DNA from: Peronospora farinosa
Lineage: Eukaryota > Oomycota > Peronosporomycetes > Peronosporales > Peronosporaceae
NCBI GenBank assembly: GCA_947646735.1
Contig: CANTFK010000542.1
Location: forward strand, 1 to 23,233
Direction of reading: 5' to 3'
Length of the DNA: 23,233 bases
The translations under genes were made by a program, and so were the position numbers. The first letter of the stretch is position 1, and each line of letters opens with the position of its first letter. This document shows, in pieces, positions 4,985-22,705 of this stretch. The notes beneath the pieces are model-generated. The model was not told the DNA's origin and did no database searches. It saw only the letters and a list, made by a program, of their open reading frames with translations.

Positions 4985-5327
4985 TGTAACGGGGCTAGAA
5001 CGTACCTTCACTAGCTCACACGCGCGCTTGAGGAAGACTCAAGCCCAAGTATTAGGTATTAAGTACTTTTTACTCTGATTTTTATTTTGTTTTAATTCGT
5101 ACTACTTACGAAGAATTTGGTCGTAATAAATACGACAGTGTTCCCGCCTTTCGGGAACCACACAATTTCAGGTTGATTTATCATTGGTCCATATTGAGGT
5201 CTTAGGCCCCAATAATAAAACAGTTATCAATTGCCACGCTGTGCCAGCTATTTGGGAAAAGCACTGCGGGCTACATATGTAATTGTTTGTTTATGCTAAT
5301 GGTATCTGTGTAATGTGGCCCATTACA
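4985..5327 (-). repeat. 5' LTR of element 1 (343 bp)
   Basis: It is bounded by TG...CA with short inverted ends (plus strand TGTAACGGGG ... CCCATTACA). It is a clear homologue of the LTR at 20917-21257 over its full length. Followed on the minus strand by a PBS and gag, it is a 5' LTR. A stem-loop GTTCCCG-loop-CGGGAAC (about 5140-5158) and AATAAA-like runs are shared with the other copy. It should hold promoter and polyadenylation signals; no individual box could be assigned with confidence. Confidence 0.93.
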
Positions 5328-8218: not shown

Positions 8219-8531
8219 TGTAATGGGGCGACCTATTACATAATTAGTTATAGGCGTAATACATAATTACATAAGTAGGCATAGGGCAGTATCCGATTAG
8301 CGGATACCGCGTGTCATTTTATTATTGTTTTTTTACTGGGGTGCCAGACCCAAAAACTAACCAATAATAAACTGACTTCCATATTGAGTGGTTTCCATGA
8401 GCTAGGGAACATATTCGCATTACTGCGAATCAAACAAAAATAAAAACAGAGTTGTATTTACGAGTTAATGATGAGCGCTTTCTCAACGCCCTTTTAGTGT
8501 AAGACGGTAACGGTCCTTTAGTCCATTTTAC
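8219..8531 (+). repeat. 5' LTR of element 2
   Basis: It begins TGTAATGGGG and ends CCATTTTAC, a mutated form of the CCCATTACA end seen in the 3' LTR. It aligns along its full length with 16613-16926. Shared internal stem-loops are GTATCCG-ATTAG-CGGATAC (8289-8307) and ATTCGCA-TTAC-TGCGAAT (about 8412-8429). An AATAAA-type run is present. Confidence 0.95.
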
Positions 8532-10120: not shown

Positions 10121-10756
10121 GCTCACGTCAGGGTCGTGAACGAACTCGCCAAGACTATTAGTCAACAAACAGAGAGCGCGATGGCCATCTGTTCGCAGTA
10201 TATACCATTACACTGATGGAGCCACAGAACGGGTCGGTCGAACATCGGTTCCCGCATACACAGACATCGGTCAAACAGGATTTCCCGATTCTAAACGAGG
10301 CGGTCGAGCAGGGGCCTTTGCATACAAGCACATCGGACGAGCAGAGGCTATAGAGGCGTTCGAGAAGGGGCTCCTGCATACAAGCACATCGGCTGAGAAG
10401 AGGCTCCCGATTAATATCGAGGCGGTCGAGCAGGGCTCCCGCGTATAAGCGCATCGGACAAGCAGAGGCTACCGATCTATATAGAGGCGGTCGAGCAGGT
10501 GCTCGAGCAACAGAGTGAGGTGGTTGACGACGATCTCCCGCCTTTGATTGACGAATATGGGCGGACTACGGATTCGCATGAGACCGACATGGTGGAGACA
10601 GAGCTCCCACGTCTAGAGGGGGGGGGGGGGTACATCATCCTCTTCTGATAGCTCTCGAGAAGGGACTCGAGACGCAAGATAAAACGCAAGAAATGAGCAC
10701 GCCGATCACCGAGACGACGCAATTCACGTCAACATGCTGATGCATTTGATTCCGAA
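10121..10756 (+). pseudogene. pol: Protease-RT linker of element 2 with imperfect repeats and a G13 run
   Basis: No catalytic domain is present. Between about 10220 and 10500 a unit of roughly 60-70 bp is repeated imperfectly about four times; its core is GAGGCGGTCGAGCAGG followed by CATACAAGCACATCGG. In one frame the core reads EAVEQGPLHTSTSDEQ. A run of 13 G (10618-10630) lies further on. The placement is equivalent to the repeats at about 2940-3260 of element 1, although the units differ. Confidence 0.65.
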
Positions 10757-14759: not shown

Positions 14760-15730
14760 GTTCAGCTGCAGTAACCGAATCGCTACTATTACGACAAGGA
14801 ATCACGCGTTTTGTGCGTGATGCATTACAAGAGGCAGTCGACAAGCAAAAAGAGAATGCAGACAGAAGAGGTCGAAAGAATATGCTGACATTTCGAGAAG
14901 GTGACAGAGTATTATTATGAACAAGTAGATTACAGAACACCTCAGTGACGAATTTGGGCGCTAATAAGTTATCTCCAAAATATATTGGCCCATTTCGGAT
15001 TGTTAAGGTGCATGGTGACGCTTACACGCTAGACATACCTACGTCTATGCGTTTGAACCCGACGTTCTACGTTGGGCGCCTCAAGGCTTACCTACCGGCG
15101 GATTTCCCTTCGAATATTCCCGCTCTTCTGTGCCGGCTTCAAATCCGACATCCCTTGACGACGACGTTGACGACGACTGGGTCAAAGTCCTGCCCGAACG
15201 CGTGCAGACTAGATCTTCTGGGGTCCTCCGAACGCAGTCATATTAAGTTGACGTCGGCGTTTGACGTAGGCGTTCAACCAGTACCAGCTTCTCACGTCGA
15301 GTCTGCTCAGCAGTCTCAGTCGCAGCATCCGCACGATCTTGAGCTTTCTCAGCCATCTCGCGAGCATCAAGTAGGACATTCTCCGACTCCTCGGCTTCAG
15401 CGCGAAGTGGGCGAAGCTCGTCATTAGACGGTACAGGAGCCCGACTGCGAGAATCGGCGCTCATCGCCATAGGTCTTTCGTCGTGATGCTCCTCCGCCCT
15501 TAATTGATGCATCGGGTGCGCGACGCTGGATTGTCGACCTTATTGTCGATCACGAGGACCACAATCCCCAGGCGCCGAGTAATAACTCGGCGCCCACGAA
15601 GAACCATGTCGAGAAACATTACAGGGTTCGTTGGTTGGGATATTCCTCGGTGAACGATACATTGGAGCCATCGAGTACGCTGTCCCAAGATGTCCCGGAC
15701 GTGTTCGAGGACTATAAATCCCGTAGAAAT
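14760..15730 (+). pseudogene. pol: Integrase C-terminal domain, linker and chromodomain of element 2
   Basis: Helical ITRFVRDALQEAVDKQKENA leads to a frame break, then the SH3-like GPFRIVKVHGDAYTLD, SMRLNPTFYVGRLKAYLP, equivalent to GPFKVLKAIGDAYTLD of element 4. A linker with stops near 15428 and 15470 follows, then the chromodomain in the same frame: ARRWIVDLIVDHEDHN, KHYRVRWLGYSSVNDTLEPS, LSQDVPDVFEDYKS. The conserved Trp of the DTWEP block is Leu here. Chromodomains in such elements steer integration to particular chromatin. The frame stays open to 16156 with no further domain, lying opposite the antisense ORF. Confidence 0.87.
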
Positions 15731-16499
15731 ACGGTGATCGTGATCGACGCTGCCGGTTCCATCTCCGATCTCGCGAGCCGTAATGCTCGCGAGCAACGAA
15801 ACCACGACGACCTCCCGAGCGACTCCGAGAGCAAGACCTATTACGAGGCTAGGAAGCATATGGATGATATTTATGACGACCTCGGCTACGTGAACGCCCA
15901 AGGCGATCTTAAGGACGCAATCTCACTCGCCGTAGCTCGGACACCTGGAGCTGTGAAAGGCTTCTCTTATAACGGGCAATCCATGGACGAATATGATCGG
16001 GCATGTCTCGCGTACACACCAAGTCGTCCCATTCCTGCCGGACCGGTCGCAATCTGCCCATGTTGCACGTTGGACATCCCTCACGAACATGGACGTAACA
16101 AAGGTGATACTTGTCACAAGTCATACGACAGATGCGCCGGCGCAGGTCGCCAATAGCGTGTCTATCACGCATTCCTTTGCGACCATCTAACCAGGACGTG
16201 AAGGACATTTCTTCACGTCGACTAGCGTTCCAGCGTCTGATAAAGGCACACCAAGACCTCTGCAGCGCATCGTCGGTATACGCGTTGCTCGTTGCTTTGC
16301 CTCTCACTGTACGGTATCGCGTGAAGAGGTCCTTCACGACCTCCAGTGGCTCGGGTTCGACAGCACCTTCAAGACCATACAAGCGCCACGGTTTCAAGTC
16401 CCCATCCATGACCTGCGGCGCGTGTTCTCTTCGGATCGTTGCTTGGTGTCCCCATTTCTGGTTGTCAGAGACATTGTTTCGTGGACGCCCAGGGTCCAT
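15243..16499 (-). pseudogene. Antisense ORF of element 2 (Cys cluster, RS-rich region, coiled coil)
   Basis: One frame on the strand opposite pol runs 419 codons from the ATG at 16497-16499, the first ATG after an upstream stop at 16509-16511. Only three stops break it: 15909-15911, 15849-15851 and 15540-15542. Residues 35-125 form a helical-looking domain (PWRLYGLEGA, LQRSWCAFIRRWN, SFTSWL, IGDLRRR). A Cys cluster follows at Cys128, 134, 142 and 145 (CDKYHLC, CPTC), then EWDDLV, IARYKRSLSQL. Next is an Arg/Ser-rich stretch (GRSRSRGRH, CSRSRSGGRR, RRSRSPYFYG), and from residue 330 a coiled coil (EMAEKAQDRADAATETAEQT). The element 4 copy has the same order. Function unknown; RNA or splicing-factor binding through the RS region is only inference. 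Confidence 0.8.
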
Positions 16500-16570
16500 G
16501 CTGATCAGTTATGTCTAACTGAGCAGGTTCGAAGTTACGTCGCTGGTCGAGAAGAAACTTTCTGCGTTTC

Positions 16571-16592
16571 GCGCTTACGTTAAGGTAAGCGC
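16571..16592. other. Stem-loop between antisense ORF and polypurine tract, element 2
   Basis: GCGCTTAC (16571-16578) and GTAAGCGC (16585-16592) pair perfectly across a 6-nt loop GTTAAG, five bases before the polypurine tract. Element 4 has an unrelated-sequence hairpin at the equivalent place (21272-21307). Confidence 0.65.
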
Positions 16593-16597
16593 AATTT

Positions 16598-16612
16598 AAA
16601 GAAGGGGGGTGA
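16598..16612 (+). other. Polypurine tract of element 2
   Basis: AAAGAAGGGGGGTGA directly precedes the 3' LTR. It would prime plus-strand cDNA synthesis. Element 4 has GAGAAGGGGGTGA in the same place on its own strand. Confidence 0.85.
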
Positions 16613-16926
16613 TGGAATGGGGCAACCTATTACATAAGTAGTTATAGGCGTAATACATAATTACATAAGTAGGCATAGGGCAGTATCCGATTAGCGGATA
16701 CTGCGTGTCATTTTATTATTGGTTTTTTTATTGGGGTGCCAGACCCAATAATTAGCCAATAATAAACTGACTTCCATATTGAGTGGTTTCCATGAGCTAG
16801 GGAACATATTCGCACTTAATGCGAATTAAACAAAAATAAAAACAGAGTTATATTTACGAGTTAATGATGAGCGCTTTCTCAACGCCCTTTTAGTGTAAGA
16901 CAGTAACGGGTCTTTAGCCCATTACA
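16613..16926 (+). repeat. 3' LTR of element 2
   Basis: TGGAATGGGG...CCCATTACA is homologous along its length to 8219-8531, with about 18 differences by eye including one in the terminal TGT. It is preceded by a polypurine tract and followed by GGAGG, the presumed right target duplication. Confidence 0.95.
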
Positions 16927-17073: not shown

Positions 17074-19076
17074 ATGCTTCCGGAAGATATGCTCGTTGAA
17101 AATGTATTCGCCAAACATTACAATGCCCTTAATGCCTTAAAGAAAGCCTCTCACGAGCACGGATTCTCCGTCAAGAAATAAGAAAACGAACAGAGCCAAA
17201 TCAGCCGAGCCCAAGAATGTTTGGCTCTTCATTACCTATTACATTGGTTGCGCTCGTGCACTGAAACTAGACAGTCGTTTAAAGGACGGGGCGAAGCCGA
17301 AACGAAAGCACCGCTATCTGTTGACAAGTTGCAGGTGGAGCGCAACTATTAAGAATGATGCGCCTGGTAATACTGGCTACCTCATTATCGCTTTTGCTGG
17401 GGAGCATAATCATCCCGCTGCGCTTAAATTACAATCTTTTCCAATTGCCCGTAGAATGAGCAAGGAGAAGCCTGAAAATTCGAAGCGATTACTGAGAACT
17501 GGCTTGAAGCCGTCATCTGTCTTAGACGTGATTCGAAGTGACCTTGCAGATGAGATCTGTCTAGTGGCTGAGAGGGATATAGTAAACATTCAACAGTCTG
17601 AGTGCGTACAAGAATTAGATGGACTGACGGAATTGGAAGCTCTTAAGAGAAATTTGAATGCGTACGACGCAAAGGTTCAGACTCGAGTAGACGGCGACGG
17701 GCATTTAACCCACCTGCGGATCATCCCTCACACGATTCTCGAGCTACTTAAAATGAAATGGCGAACGACTGTGGTGAAGTCAGAAGAAAACTACCGCACA
17801 AATGTCCATTGCGATGGAATGCTGCATATCATCAGTTCCTACAAATACCAATCGAGCGTCACCTTAGCCTACTTCTATGTGCGCATTACCACAGAGAAGA
17901 ATTTAACCTGAATTTTCAGTCGGTGTTGGATTTCAGCGGACACAGATGTAGCAATTGGAACGCTATGAATAAAGTTTTCCCGAAGTACCCCCATCTTCTT
18001 TACTACATGCATATTCAGGAAAATATACGAAAACACCATAGAGGAAGTTTTCCTAGCAAAGAGCAAGTTGAAGATGCTGCACTTGTGGGAGTGGATCTAA
18101 ACACTTGGGACACCTTTGTGGAAAACTTTGCAAATTTGTGCCTGCGAACATTTACCGAGGAAGACCTATACAAAATATGGACCGCAAATGAAGAAGCGCG
18201 TCGCGGAAGAATGTGCCAAGTATGCACAAAATATTTGGTTTAATACTGTCAAGGAGAGATTTTGAGCCCCCTGGTTCACTCACGTATTCCAATTTGGTCA
18301 ACTGACGACTTCATAGTGTAGTGGGCTCACGCCGCGTTAAAAAAAGAATAAGCCTCCTCCCAAAAGTCGCTGTGTATGATCTACAAGCCAATCGAGAAAG
18401 TGGCGGCCAAGTAATTGGATAAATGCCAAAAAGCGCGGTCGGATGACTTGTGAGCCGCGCAGATGCGCCCTCCTCAGATTTTTAGCGACCCTGTGTGTAC
18501 AATTTCCCTCAACGCTTTAACACCCTTTAAATGCAACTGGGCATTGCAAAAAGTAAATTCAAGAAGAAATAAGAGTTGGTCCCAGGACGTTACCAAAAGC
18601 CGCTTTGTGACGGTTTGTATTTATAGGGTCATTAGTTACATGGGTTCTCACCATTTATTTAATTTGGCTGAGAAGAATGGTGAAGAGGATGCACGAGTGG
18701 ATCCTACCACCATTCACGTTTTTTGGTTCCTGGACAAAACATAAAAACCACTTTCCAACCGCAAAAGCTCGACAATAAAACCTTTGCAGAACAAAGGCAA
18801 AACAAAACCGTAAAGGCACGCTGACCCACTGTACCTGATAATAACGGGAAGAAGGTACCGAAAAGGCGTGGAATGCAGATGTGCCATGTTTGTAGGAAGT
18901 ATGTTCGACATAACATTGCAACGTGTCACCAGAAACATCCCAAAAAAGCTGCTGTAAGGGAAGTTGGGGTACCAACACGGCGTCTGACGCCAATGCGAGA
19001 AGAAATTCGTGAAATTTTTACCGCCTCAGCCAGCGCTTCACCAGGAAGCTCACCCTCACCCACCGCCGCAACTTGA
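17074..19076 (+). pseudogene. Mutator-like (FAR1-type MULE) transposase, decayed
   Basis: ATG 17074 starts MLPEDMLVENVFAKHYNALN and ASHEHGFSVKK, then TAA 17179-17181. Another frame gives a FAR1/FLYWCH-like zinc domain: RKHRYLLTSCRWSATI ... EHNHPAA. A helical middle follows (TGLKPSSVLDVIRSDLADEI), then a MULE core: NYRTN...GMLHIISSYKYQSS and, after a frameshift, NAMNKVFPKYPHLLYYMHIQ with GSFPSKEQVEDA. From 17758 to 18744 a single frame holds the rest with six stops, including HAALKK and PPQIFSDPVC. A SWIM-like remnant (CIYRVISYMGSHHLFNLAEK) and a knuckle CHVCRKYVRHNIATC (18876 on, another frame) follow. The expected DCTYKTN motif appears as EENYRTN, so the first catalytic Asp seems lost. Family assignment is from remembered motifs. 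Confidence 0.8.
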
Positions 19077-19301
19077 GCAGCTTCATTGCCCTGTAATGCG
19101 GTCCCAGGCACCGCAGCTGCAGATTAAAGAGTGCCACTATCCCGCAATGCAGTCTCAGATGCATTATGGTGAGTCGCTGCTTTCAATGCAGCAGTACAGT
19201 CAGTTGCAGGCACCATTGATGCAGCACGGTCATTGCAGCCTTTAATGCAGCAATACGGCCAGTTGCAGACATCGATGTAGCACGGTCGTTGCAGTCCTTT
19301 A
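19077..19301 (+). pseudogene. Gln-rich tail of the MULE protein and seed of the minisatellite
   Basis: The frame from 19009 reads HQEAHPHPPPQLEQLHCPVM, QAPQLQIKECHYPAMQSQM, SMQQYSQLQAPLMQHGHCSL and stops at 19243-19245. Two degenerate units of 59 and 57 bp (starting 19186 and 19245) each contain an MQQY(S/G)QLQ segment plus an MQHG-like segment. The first half of this unit is what expands as the 30-bp array from 19302. A Pro/Gln-rich C-terminal tail on the transposase is the simplest reading. Confidence 0.55.
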
Positions 19302-20094
19302 ATGCAGCAATACGGCCAGTTGCAGACATCGATGCAGCAATACGGCAGTTGCAGACATCGATGCAGCAATACGGCCAGTTGCAGACATCGATGCAGCAAT
19401 ACGGCCAGTTGCAGACATCGATGCAGCAATACGGCCAGTTGCAGACATCGATGCAGCAATACGGCCAGTTGCAGACATCGATGCAGCAATACGGCCAGTT
19501 GCAGACATCGATGCAGCAATACGGCCAGTTGCAGACATCGATGCAGCAATACGGCAGTTGCAGACATCGATGCAGCAATACGGCCAGTTGCAGACATCGA
19601 TGCAGCAATACGGCCAGTTGCAGACATCGATGCAGCAATACGGCCAGTTGCAGACATCGATGCAGCAATACGGCCAGTTGCAGACATCGATGCAGCAATA
19701 CGGCCAGTTGCAGACATCGATGCAGCAATACGGCCAGTTGCAGACATCGATGCAGCAATACGGCCAGTTGCAGACATCGATGCAGCAATACGGCCAGTTG
19801 CAGACATCGATGCAGCAATACGGCCAGTTGCAGACATCGATGCAGCAATACGGCCAGTTGCAGACATCGATGCAGCAATACGGCCAGTTGCAGACATCGA
19901 TGCAGCAATACGGCCAGTTGCAGACATCGATGCAGCAATACGGCCAGTTGCAGACATCGATGCAGCAATACGGCCAGTTGCAGACATCGATGCAGCAATA
20001 CGGCCAGTTGCAGACATCAATGCAGCAATACGGCCAGTTGCAGACATCGATGCAGCAATACGGCCAGTTGCAGACATCGATGCAGCAGTGTGAC
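19302..20094. repeat. 30-bp minisatellite, 27 units
   Basis: The unit is ATGCAGCAATACGGCCAGTT followed by GCAGACATCG. Starts fall at 19302, 19332, 19361, every 30 bp to 19541, then 19570 and every 30 bp to 20080; the last unit is partial. Units are almost identical. Two 29-bp units (19332 and 19541) share the same missing C, and one G-to-A change lies near 20019. The unit has no stop in any of six frames; the transposase-strand frame reads MQQYGQLQTS. The two 29-bp units being 209 bp apart suggests a block duplication of seven units. Confidence 0.97.
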
Positions 20095-20205
20095 AAGCCG
20101 CGCCTTTTCGTGCAGCTTCCCCACCCAGACATGAGTTTACTTCATGGACAGCAAGCACCGAGCCAGGAAGAGATAGTGTATCTATTTGTATTTCCTTGTT
20201 GCTGA
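20095..20205 (+). pseudogene. Coding-like tail after the minisatellite
   Basis: The MQQYGQLQTS frame continues out of the array as MQQCDKPRLFVQLPHPDMSL, then a short stretch, and stops at 20203-20205. This is probably the last part of the MULE-encoded protein, though frame continuity through the array is broken by the two 29-bp units. No domain is recognised. Confidence 0.4.
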
Positions 20206-20657
20206 CGGATGGGTAATGTGTGCACTGGGACAAGATACGATAATTCTCGTGGCTCAAGACCACTAATATTCAGGTTGGAAACATCATTCCTCATTTTGCT
20301 CGCCTCTTTTTCATCTCTTTTTAGCTGGCCTCACCACATGCTGGCAGACAAGCTGGAAGCTGCTACAGGTCTGACACGCGCGACTCAGGATTTTAATCGA
20401 CCTCAATGTATTGTAAAAAGCACACTTCATACTACGATAGCATGCTCGTCGGGATCAAATTAGTTTTCATCATCCGCAAGTGTCGTAATGTTAGCACTAG
20501 GCGACGCGAGCATCTGCCCATGCAATTCCTGGCTGCATACAGGATGGGGAGCGCGCATGGTCAAGATTCTTGGGTGCTGCATTGAGTTCGAGGTCATTTA
20601 TGGTAGGAAGCCACTGGGTAAATGAAAATAAAACAATCAAGTAGAATTTCATCCAGC
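20206..20657. other. No recognisable feature
   Basis: About 450 bp in which neither strand shows a protein motif, repeat or RNA gene. A short open frame at 20209-20463 has no recognisable content. This may be the 3' non-coding part of the MULE or its flank; no terminal inverted repeat was seen. Confidence 0.4.
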
Positions 20658-20916: not shown

Positions 20917-21257
20917 TGTAACGGGGCTAGAACGTACCGTCACTAGCTTACACGCGCGCTCGAGGAAGACTCAAGCCCAAGTATTAGGTATTAAGTAAAT
21001 TTAACTCTGATTTTATTTTGGTTTTAATTCGTACTAATTACGAATATTTTAGTCGTAATAAATACGACAGTGTTCCCGCCTTTCGGGAACCACACAATTT
21101 CAGGTTGATTTATCATTGGTCCATATTGGGGACTTAAGGCCCAATAATAAACCAATAATAAATTACCACGCTGTGCCCGCTATTCGGGCCCAGCACCTGC
21201 CACCATATGTAATTGTTTGTTTATGTTAATGGTATATGTGTAATGTAGCCCATTACA
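20917..21257 (-). repeat. 3' LTR of element 4 (341 bp)
   Basis: TGTAACGGGG...CCCATTACA on the plus strand, homologous over its full length to 4985-5327 and with the same GTTCCCG...CGGGAAC stem-loop. Because a polypurine tract and the pol end abut its upstream side on the minus strand, it is a 3' LTR. It cannot be the partner of the 5' LTR at 4985, which has its own gag on the other side. Confidence 0.93.
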
Positions 21258-21270
21258 TCACCCCCTTCTC
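21258..21270 (-). other. Polypurine tract of element 4
   Basis: On the minus strand GAGAAGGGGGTGA directly precedes the TG of the 3' LTR, matching GAAGGGGGGTGA in element 2. Confidence 0.82.
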
Positions 21271-21271
21271 A

Positions 21272-21307
21272 CGACAGCACTCACCAACCGTGAGTGCTCA
21301 GCTGTCG
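21272..21307. other. Bulged stem-loop beside the polypurine tract, element 4
   Basis: CGACAG+CACTCAC (21272-21284) pairs with GTGAGTG (21290-21296) and CTGTCG (21302-21307), giving 13 base pairs with a 5-nt bulge CTCAG and a 5-nt loop. It lies between the polypurine tract and the antisense ORF start, so it would be in the 5' leader of an antisense transcript and near the 3' end of the sense transcript. Confidence 0.65.
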
Positions 21308-21320
21308 AAAACCCTTTGCA

Positions 21321-22705
21321 ATGTCCGGAGACCCAACACCCAATCCAGCAGAACGCCCAAGATACATCAGCGGGAATGCATCAACCAGCATCATGGCGCG
21401 GCAGCTCATACCTTGGTCGCTGTACGACTTGTCCGGAGCTCACGCTCCGGACTCGCTGGACATGATGCGGGACTACTTCCGCCGATTTCGAAAACTGCGC
21501 GGAAAAGGTCTTGATGGAATCGAGCATGAAGCTCTACAACGTTCTTGGTGTGCCTTCATCCAACGTTGGAATCGGATGCTCGAGGATGGTAGCAGCTTCC
21601 AATTATGGCTCGCCAATCGAGAGGAGCTTCGCGCCGATCACTCCATCGGCGCGCTACGCGAAAGAGTGCGTGAGGATGCTTGAAATGAGGACCGTCTCTG
21701 CTTCGTCCATGTCAGTCTTGTGACTCGACTCCACGCCCAACTCATGACGAATGGCGACGACACATCGCTGAGTGTCCACTCAGCGATCGCGAACGAAGTT
21801 ATATTGCAAAGTATGAGCGAAGTCTGAGCGAACGGAGAAGCGCAGTTATTCGTGGTGCGCCCCGCTGGCGGCACCACTCGCGACAGCGGAGTCAATCTCC
21901 GCGGGATCATCAGCGCAGGGCAGCGACACGTTCGCCTGCCCGTCCAGTTGCGCGATTCTCGCCTAGCAATCGTGATATGTATTCACCGCGACATTCTCGA
22001 TCACGGCATCGATCTCGTTCGCGACATCGTTTGCGTTCGCGACATCGTTCTCGTTCGCGTCATCGTTCCCGTTCCCGACGACGTGGATCTCCTTACCACT
22101 CTCGTTTGTCACGAGAGCGTTCGCGTGCTCGCCCGCCTTGGAATAGTCCGACTTCGTGGCTTCATACGACAGAACCACATCTGGAACGTCACGAAGGAGC
22201 GAGGAACGTGGTTCCCATGTATCCTGCTCGGGAGGGAATCCAAGCCAACGTACTCGGTACCTGCGCACGGATGGAACCGCACGCTTCTCATGAGCCGACT
22301 GCAGTAATGGTTGTGGAGGGTCCTCGTGACCCACAATGCGGTCTACAATCCAGCGCACCTGTCCCTCCGCATCAACAAGCGGAGGAGGGCCCTCGCGATG
22401 GTAGTGCTGGCGTCCTGGTTGCTCAGGACGATGTTGATCAGGCCGTGAATATAGCTGCCGATGCTCGGCTGGAGGCTGAGGCTGCCAGTGAACGTGCTGC
22501 CCAGGCGGAGAAGACTTCGAGTGAGACCCGGCAGTCGAACCGTGAACTGCTCGAACGGATAAGGGTTCTGGAGCGCCAGGTGCTTGGTCAGGTTCAGACG
22601 GGATCGAGACCCCGCCCCATGTCATCGGCGCGTCGAGCACGACGGGAAGGCCGTTCGACTTACGAACCCCTGAAGCCGGCGTCGGAGCCAAACCGTGAAG
22701 CGTAG
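21321..22705 (+). pseudogene. Antisense ORF of element 4 (Cys cluster, RS domain, coiled coil), nearly open
   Basis: Homologue of the antisense ORF at 15243-16499. ATG 21321 starts MSGDPTPNPAERP; the N-terminal domain reads PWSLYDLSGAHAPDSLDMM, LQRSWCAFIQRWN, SFQLWLANREELR, IGALRERV. A TGA at 21681-21683 falls exactly where element 2 has the first Cys of the cluster (TGT to TGA). LCFVHV follows, a frameshift lies near 21708-21713, then CQSC, DEWRRHI and IAKYERSLSE. The frame is then open to 22705: a strong Arg/Ser domain (SRSRHRSRSRHRLRSRHRSR, about 21985-22080), a Pro-rich middle (GPRDPQCGLQSS) and a coiled coil (AEAASERAAQAEKTSSETRQ, ELLERIRVLERQV). About 460 codons; only two lesions. It overlaps pol on the other strand between 21963 and 22705. 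Confidence 0.82.

Follow-up and report, generated by a model that had tools for sequence, protein, structure and literature searches.

A chromodomain Ty3/gypsy element of Peronospora farinosa (element 2 of the 23,233-nucleotide stretch of contig CANTFK010000542.1 that was analysed here as a whole, hereafter the window) appears to carry, antisense to gag-pol, the decayed copy of a gene whose protein has been kept by selection. On balance we favour the reading in which this protein is probably a nuclear regulator acting in trans on the element. That the antisense frame (aORF) belongs to a real protein-coding gene is a conclusion we hold with high confidence; its proposed role is put forward more guardedly.

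The antisense frame and its distribution

The first-pass annotation had described a 419-codon minus-strand frame with three internal stops, running from 16499 to 15243 in element 2, and reading of the sequence confirms it (Table 1). Its boundaries required correction. The frame was said to begin 114 bp inside the 3' LTR; the LTR is about 310 bp long, which leaves 113 bp between it and the ATG at 16499, so the start lies in the internal region. Nor is codon 419 the end, since an insertion of 13 nt at 15253 puts the frame out of register until 1 nt is deleted at 15122, and similarity to intact copies extends past 15243 to 15084. The element is heavily frameshifted, as claimed, with 19 indels (17 frameshifting) in the 4.7 kb upstream vs 2 in 15084-16499, counted in the main alignments against one intact copy with the repeat stretch excluded; another count, 25, includes indels from overlapping repeat alignments. 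The scarcity of indels in the aORF was set aside as evidence because this copy is old and changes private to single copies look neutral. The reported match along the plus-strand frame of element 4, a member of a second family (B), stands in part. When three pieces of the element 2 aORF were aligned to two pieces of the element 4 plus strand, the first piece matched over 94 aa with 46% identity (E=8e-25) and also over 49 aa (E=1.4e-4), and the third piece matched at E=0.064; the second piece gave nothing at E<=1.

Table 1. Positions of the antisense frames and associated features in the window.
Feature	Positions	Strand	Remarks
aORF of element 2, family A, decayed	15084..16499	-	Stops at codons 197 (TAA, 15911-15909), 217 (TAG, 15851-15849) and 320 (TAA, 15542-15540); insertion at 15253; deletion at 15122; intact relatives 468 aa
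Conserved N-terminal domain with Cys/His cluster, predicted to be all-helical	15960..16409	-	About residues 31-180; predicted from the Phytophthora relatives P0002 and P0014
pol chromodomain of element 2, facing the middle of the aORF	15530..15724	+	PF00385, E=1.2e-5
Tf2-1-like SH3 domain of element 2 pol, at the C-terminal end of the aORF	14939..15091	+	PF24626, E=2e-12
3' LTR of element 2; likely home of a putative antisense promoter	16613..16923	+	
5' LTR of element 2	8219..8527	+	
Leader from LTR to aORF start codon, with hairpins	16500..16612	-	Hairpin stems are those of other family A copies
aORF of element 4 (family B), decayed by stops and frameshifts	21321..22705	+	
pol chromodomain of element 4, facing the aORF	22161..22349	-	PF00385, E=8.7e-8
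3' LTR of element 4	20917..21257	-	63 bp from its aORF start

The first 196 residues have at least 152 matches in the genome (46.85 Mb, 274 contigs), the 468-aa family A protein at least 106 and a family B relative at least 96; the three lists overlap and include fragments. Among the matches listed, 7 of the at least 106 for family A are open over residues 1-468, the length of the intact protein, and 25 of the at least 96 for family B are open from residue 7 or earlier to residue 458 or later (intact protein about 460 aa). The frame is thus fully open in many copies rather than in one.

The aORF lies on the 3' LTR side of the element, with its start codon 113 bp (family A) or 63 bp (family B) inward of the 3' LTR. 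In an intact copy, L042, pol is an open frame of 1895 codons with matches to protease-like, RT, RNase H, integrase and SH3_Tf2-1 domains and, at its end, a chromodomain (PF00385, E=2.1e-11). Gag occupies a separate open frame in L042, and its zinc knuckle has a Pfam match in the window copy. Three quarters of the aORF lies over pol (an overlap of 1058 bp in L009/L042, which are one and the same place), and the N-terminal part outside it is about 114 residues long in family A and 172 in family B. A single antisense phase, in which pol codon positions 1, 2 and 3 stand opposite aORF positions 1, 3 and 2, is found in 28 of the 29 frames listed (L032 is the exception), so that pol wobble bases face second codon positions of the aORF. 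The chromodomain is opposite aORF indices 261-327 and the SH3 domain begins at the aORF end, codon indices being counted here and below from the start of the open frame, three codons before the Met. Tandem repeats are present in pol before the RT, at 7658-8111 of L042 (33-bp step) and at 10235-10500 of the window.

Some pol matches lack an aORF match, and seven of these loci (L059-L065) were read. Behind the start codon each lacks one base, and the aORF is missing from about residue 65 to index 211. In this loss lineage, A', other sequence replaces most of the aORF N-domain, including the stretch GGTTCGATCCCCACGTCCGCCA, which we take to resemble a tRNA 3' end. A tRNA gene had been suspected there from the letters; ARAGORN found none in the 7 loci. 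A DNA search located the insert at 40 places or more, some of them probable duplicates. Six of the 7 copies share a stop in the aORF frame at index 257. Over that stretch the pol frame has no stop in any of the seven, and it stays open for 317-377 codons, up to where the examined sequence ends.

Relatives were found in two genera. A profile search, in which 7,996 candidates were scored, yielded 25 homologous proteins, and the 18 named ones all come from Phytophthora (fragariae, rubi, capsici, megakarya, ramorum, infestans and idaei) or Peronospora (destructor and effusa). Homologues therefore retain the frame in nine named species as well as in the two diverged families of this genome. The closest named database relatives are a Peronospora effusa model (67% over 39%) and a Peronospora destructor protein (59% over 98%). 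When 17 of the relatives and five copies of this genome were placed in a tree of the N-domain, two clades separated with support 1.000. The first holds family A, Peronospora destructor, Peronospora effusa, Phytophthora fragariae and Phytophthora rubi; the second holds family B and the remaining Phytophthora species, family B being its sole member of known source outside Phytophthora.

Back-translation in the aORF phase implies an opposite-strand chromodomain in all nine database homologues tested out of the 25, with z of 8.5-16.9 for eight and 5.7 for P0004, which is without part of the middle. In the other two phases z was at most 2.7 in the nine homologues and 4.1 in controls from the own genome (z is the better of two targets, with 40 shuffles each). 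Since the aORFs are homologous, this result shows a coupled arrangement that was kept and not one that originated repeatedly. By inference from these sequences, chromodomain Ty3/gypsy elements of Phytophthora and Peronospora would carry the aORF across the 3' end of pol.

Selection on two overlapping frames

The overlap is free of stops in each of the three copies tested. Synonymous recoding of pol (20,000 trials, with the codon usage of upstream pol or, for L039, of the whole frame) gave on average 6.2 stops in the 352 overlap codons of L042 (family A, P0=0.0009), 6.7 in the 284 of L040 (family B, P0=0.0004) and 6.85 in the 257 of L039 (family B, P0=0.0002). The upstream pol of L042, read in the aORF phase, contains 77 stops in 1543 codons.

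A codon model was applied to 7 of the 27 aligned copies (3 from A and 4 from B). It gave an omega of 0.25 (2dlnL 25.0) for aORF indices 28-117, which lie outside pol, and 0.24 (2dlnL 26.6) for indices 118-200; family B alone (18 copies) gave a 2dlnL of 5.7. When the six frames were compared over these two stretches, the aORF ranked top. An omega<1 was also obtained, with lower scores (17.0 and 10.6), for the mirrored frame, whose wobble base is the same as that of the aORF; the remaining frames favoured omega of 1 or above. Synonymous change thus exceeds expectation where pol leaves the DNA unconstrained, and neither a lack of synonymous excess nor an open frame confined to one copy, named beforehand as grounds for rejecting the gene, was found. 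The comparisons support the accessory-protein reading that the first-pass annotation had proposed for the conserved frame.

Further along, the pol frame scores highest at indices 300-345 (2dlnL 14.4) and the aORF at indices 345-468 (2dlnL 9.9), where the best omega for pol is 1.5. Divergence between families A and B by codon position is 0.38, 0.39 and 0.62 in the N-domain outside pol, and 0.30, 0.54 and 0.45 at indices 300-345; the latter pattern indicates that pol dominates there. Constraint is accordingly split, with the aORF leading at the N-domain and the coiled coil and pol at the chromodomain. It should be mentioned that at indices 200-300, where the RS stretch lies, constraint on the aORF is nearly absent (2dlnL 1.8) and the pol frame, with some constraint, has the highest score (6.4); this counts against the antisense-gene reading.

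Site classes were examined in 29 family A copies, 28 of them aligned to L009, with poor windows masked and L017 excluded as a near-duplicate of L016. Outside the chromodomain, private single-copy changes are neutral, 117 of 436 being aORF-synonymous where 114.4 are expected (P=0.79). Changes common to 2-24 copies are enriched for aORF-synonymous ones (63 of 152, expected 42.6, P=0.0003), as are those common to 3-24 copies (29 of 58, expected 16.8, P=0.0006). Shared changes at the chromodomain show no enrichment (6 of 22, expected 5.7). An ungapped form of this test on 26 copies, to which copies with small indels added false differences, agreed in direction, with 65 of 173 against 47.3 expected, and was superseded. 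Stops common to 2-24 of the 28 A copies occur at 6 sites, with 10.1 expected, and those common to at least three copies at 1 site, with 3.3 expected; they are rarer than chance, but that any are present counts against the gene. Also on that side, no sign of slower pol synonymous change in the overlap was seen between A and B, identity at 4-fold sites being 0.235 (n=51) in the overlap and 0.312 (n=80) and 0.372 (n=94) upstream of it.

Predicted protein and flanking DNA

The protein is predicted to consist of a helical N-domain with a Cys/His cluster, a basic middle rich in Arg and Ser, and a C-terminal coiled coil. In the AlphaFold model of the Phytophthora fragariae relative, helices occupy residues 41-179 (pLDDT mostly 74-90), and a long helix spans residues 325-385, with pLDDT above 90 in 331-380; the whole model has a pLDDT of 60.8 and a pTM of 0.31. 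Disorder with Arg/Ser repeats is predicted for residues 181-320 of the same protein, and a second model of the N-domain agrees with the helical prediction. The conserved pattern LCYVHV.EGC..C together with an upstream Cys could bind zinc; its His is replaced by Ser in Phytophthora capsici. Net charges of the five proteins computed range from +15 to +28. Pfam, NCBIfam, PDB-sequence and fold searches with the aORF proteins gave no informative match, and function is therefore inferred from composition and position.

The LTR and leader form a chain of hairpins in copies of both families (window 16500-16923 and 20917-21320). Over 490 bp of L009 there are 8 perfect stems with lengths of 6-11 bp, whereas 60 shuffles averaged 1.0 and never exceeded 4. 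The corresponding numbers are 9, 4 and 5 in L012, L038 and L036, and 4, 5, 4 and 5 in the family B copies L039, L040, L041 and element 4. One stem differs between the families yet remains paired (ATTCGCA/TGCGAAT in A vs TTCGTA/TACGAA in B), and so does a second, GCGCTTAC/GTAAGCGC in A and, in two of the four B copies, AGCACTCAC/GTGAGTGCT. In L009, L012 and L036 the start codon of the aORF adjoins the end of an 11-bp stem. Scanning the LTR for the oomycete initiator produced no signal above shuffles.

Elsewhere in the window, family B LTRs at 4985-5327 and 20917-21257 are about 90% identical, 15.9 kb apart and in the same direction. A 30-bp tandem array with several frames open on both strands lies at 19226-20207. 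Open pieces at 17141-18243 contain a GEHNHP-like motif, presumably reminiscent of FAR1/MULE transposases; no Pfam match at E<=0.01 was found in 17321-17911.

Proposed role and known antisense genes

In the mechanism that we propose, an antisense promoter in the 3' LTR would read inward, and its transcript would carry a short leader with hairpins ahead of the aORF. The protein would oligomerise through its coil, would be taken into the nucleus by its basic stretch, and might there bind element RNA or LTR DNA and adjust sense expression or RNA fate. Copies without the aORF would be served by others or escape control. The nuclear regulator reading is supported by analogy, because antisense genes of HTLV yield nuclear regulators (excerpts of PMC10186651) and the antisense product of maize Grande is nuclear (excerpts of PMC7264820). 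A trans-acting nuclear regulator in just this form is a proposal in which our confidence falls slightly short of even. The lineage without the aORF has amplified, and the aORF is therefore not needed in cis; the spread of A' fits a trans-acting factor or a self-limiting one.

A self-limiting factor would restrain its own element, as the copy-number control factor p22 does for yeast Ty1 (PMC8458377, in part), and A' would have spread through its loss. A' indeed has no aORF, an open pol end and at least 40 places, and HTLV antisense proteins repress sense expression according to the same excerpts of PMC10186651, but copy numbers of A and A' are both lower bounds and not comparable; we consider this explanation unlikely. 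The protein could instead act beside Gag as a similar nucleic-acid chaperone that helps to form particles or nucleoprotein and reaches A' in trans, a role that its helical domain, Cys/His cluster and basic charge would suit. However, comparison of one Gag of the element with 21 relatives detected no relation (hhalign probability 0.15%), and the element has its own open gag with a zinc knuckle, which makes the helper role distinctly improbable. Gypsy elements of Phytophthora infestans have small RNAs of both senses mapping along them (PMC3522703, in part), as expected if the antisense RNA mattered as a small-RNA source or by interference and the protein were incidental; selection acts on amino acids and not on nucleotides alone, though, and an omega of 0.25 is unexplained by an RNA function, so we give this very little credence. 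Hardly credible, finally, is a frame that is a by-product of pol codon use, its openness and similarity shadowing pol conservation with no antisense gene: although three quarters of it lies over pol and phase-coupled codons carry similarity across, the part best conserved between families lies outside pol and the codon model contradicts the by-product reading for the N-domain, recoded pol would give 6 to 7 stops where three copies have none, and most A' copies share a stop in the aORF frame while their pol frame has none.

A few retroviruses have antisense genes, and so do plant Gypsy elements, where they lie between pol and the LTR; for most of them no function is known. The plant examples include the ORFs of the Retand lineage with its TRP28 domain, gene23 of maize Grande and that of rice RIRE2, their function being given as unknown in the available portions of PMC7264820 and PMC11963269. 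Like them, the oomycete aORF is long, antisense to gag-pol and near the 3' LTR. In contrast, the Retand ORFs are described in these portions as lying in a region of 2.9-6.6 kb between pol and LTR of non-chromovirus elements, whereas the oomycete aORF is mostly over pol and its chromodomain. HBZ of HTLV-1 and APH of HTLV are antisense genes adjoining the 3' LTR (PMC10186651, excerpts), as is the oomycete aORF, for which a C-terminal coiled coil is predicted; the host group differs. Neither the TRP28 domain (PF04195) of the Retand ORFs nor the bZIP of HBZ is among the six families matched by 14 aORF members at E<=1. In Mytilus chilensis, an antisense ORF has been proposed from the 3' LTR of Steamer-like element-1, likewise positioned, but it has 67 aa vs 460-470 aa in the oomycete aORF (PMC10974842, as excerpted), and the excerpts give no evidence of selection on it. 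The oomycete Ty3/Gypsy element Chronos shares a chromodomain at the end of pol with the aORF-bearing element; it has a second, archaeal-type RNase H according to part of PMC5348765, whereas the L042 pol matches only RT_RNaseH and RT_RNaseH_2 at E<=0.01. The main text of the Chronos paper (PMC5348765) contains no word beginning with 'antisense'. Searches of the open-licence PMC literature turned up no description of such an oomycete antisense gene. In arrangement, the ORFs of Retand, Grande and RIRE2 and HBZ of HTLV come closest; the oomycete gene may work alike and appears to be a member of neither group.

As a tentative picture, which we regard as possible while leaning against it, an HBZ-like regulatory gene would have evolved in oomycete retrotransposons, independently of retroviruses and plants, on the back of a chromodomain, with constraint split between the strands, before Phytophthora and Peronospora separated; one lineage would have shed it and would now be a freeloader or an escapee. 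If elements of both genera do carry the aORF, at least 16 Phytophthora protein clusters termed hypothetical or uncharacterized would be reverse-strand retrotransposon products. A 1.4-kb antisense gene sharing most of its DNA with pol, including the chromodomain, in a tightly coupled phase appears to have been long-lived, over genus-level time. Because natural copies are numerous, the two families have diverged and one lineage has lost the gene naturally, the effect of such a gene on a retrotransposon can be tested by comparison.
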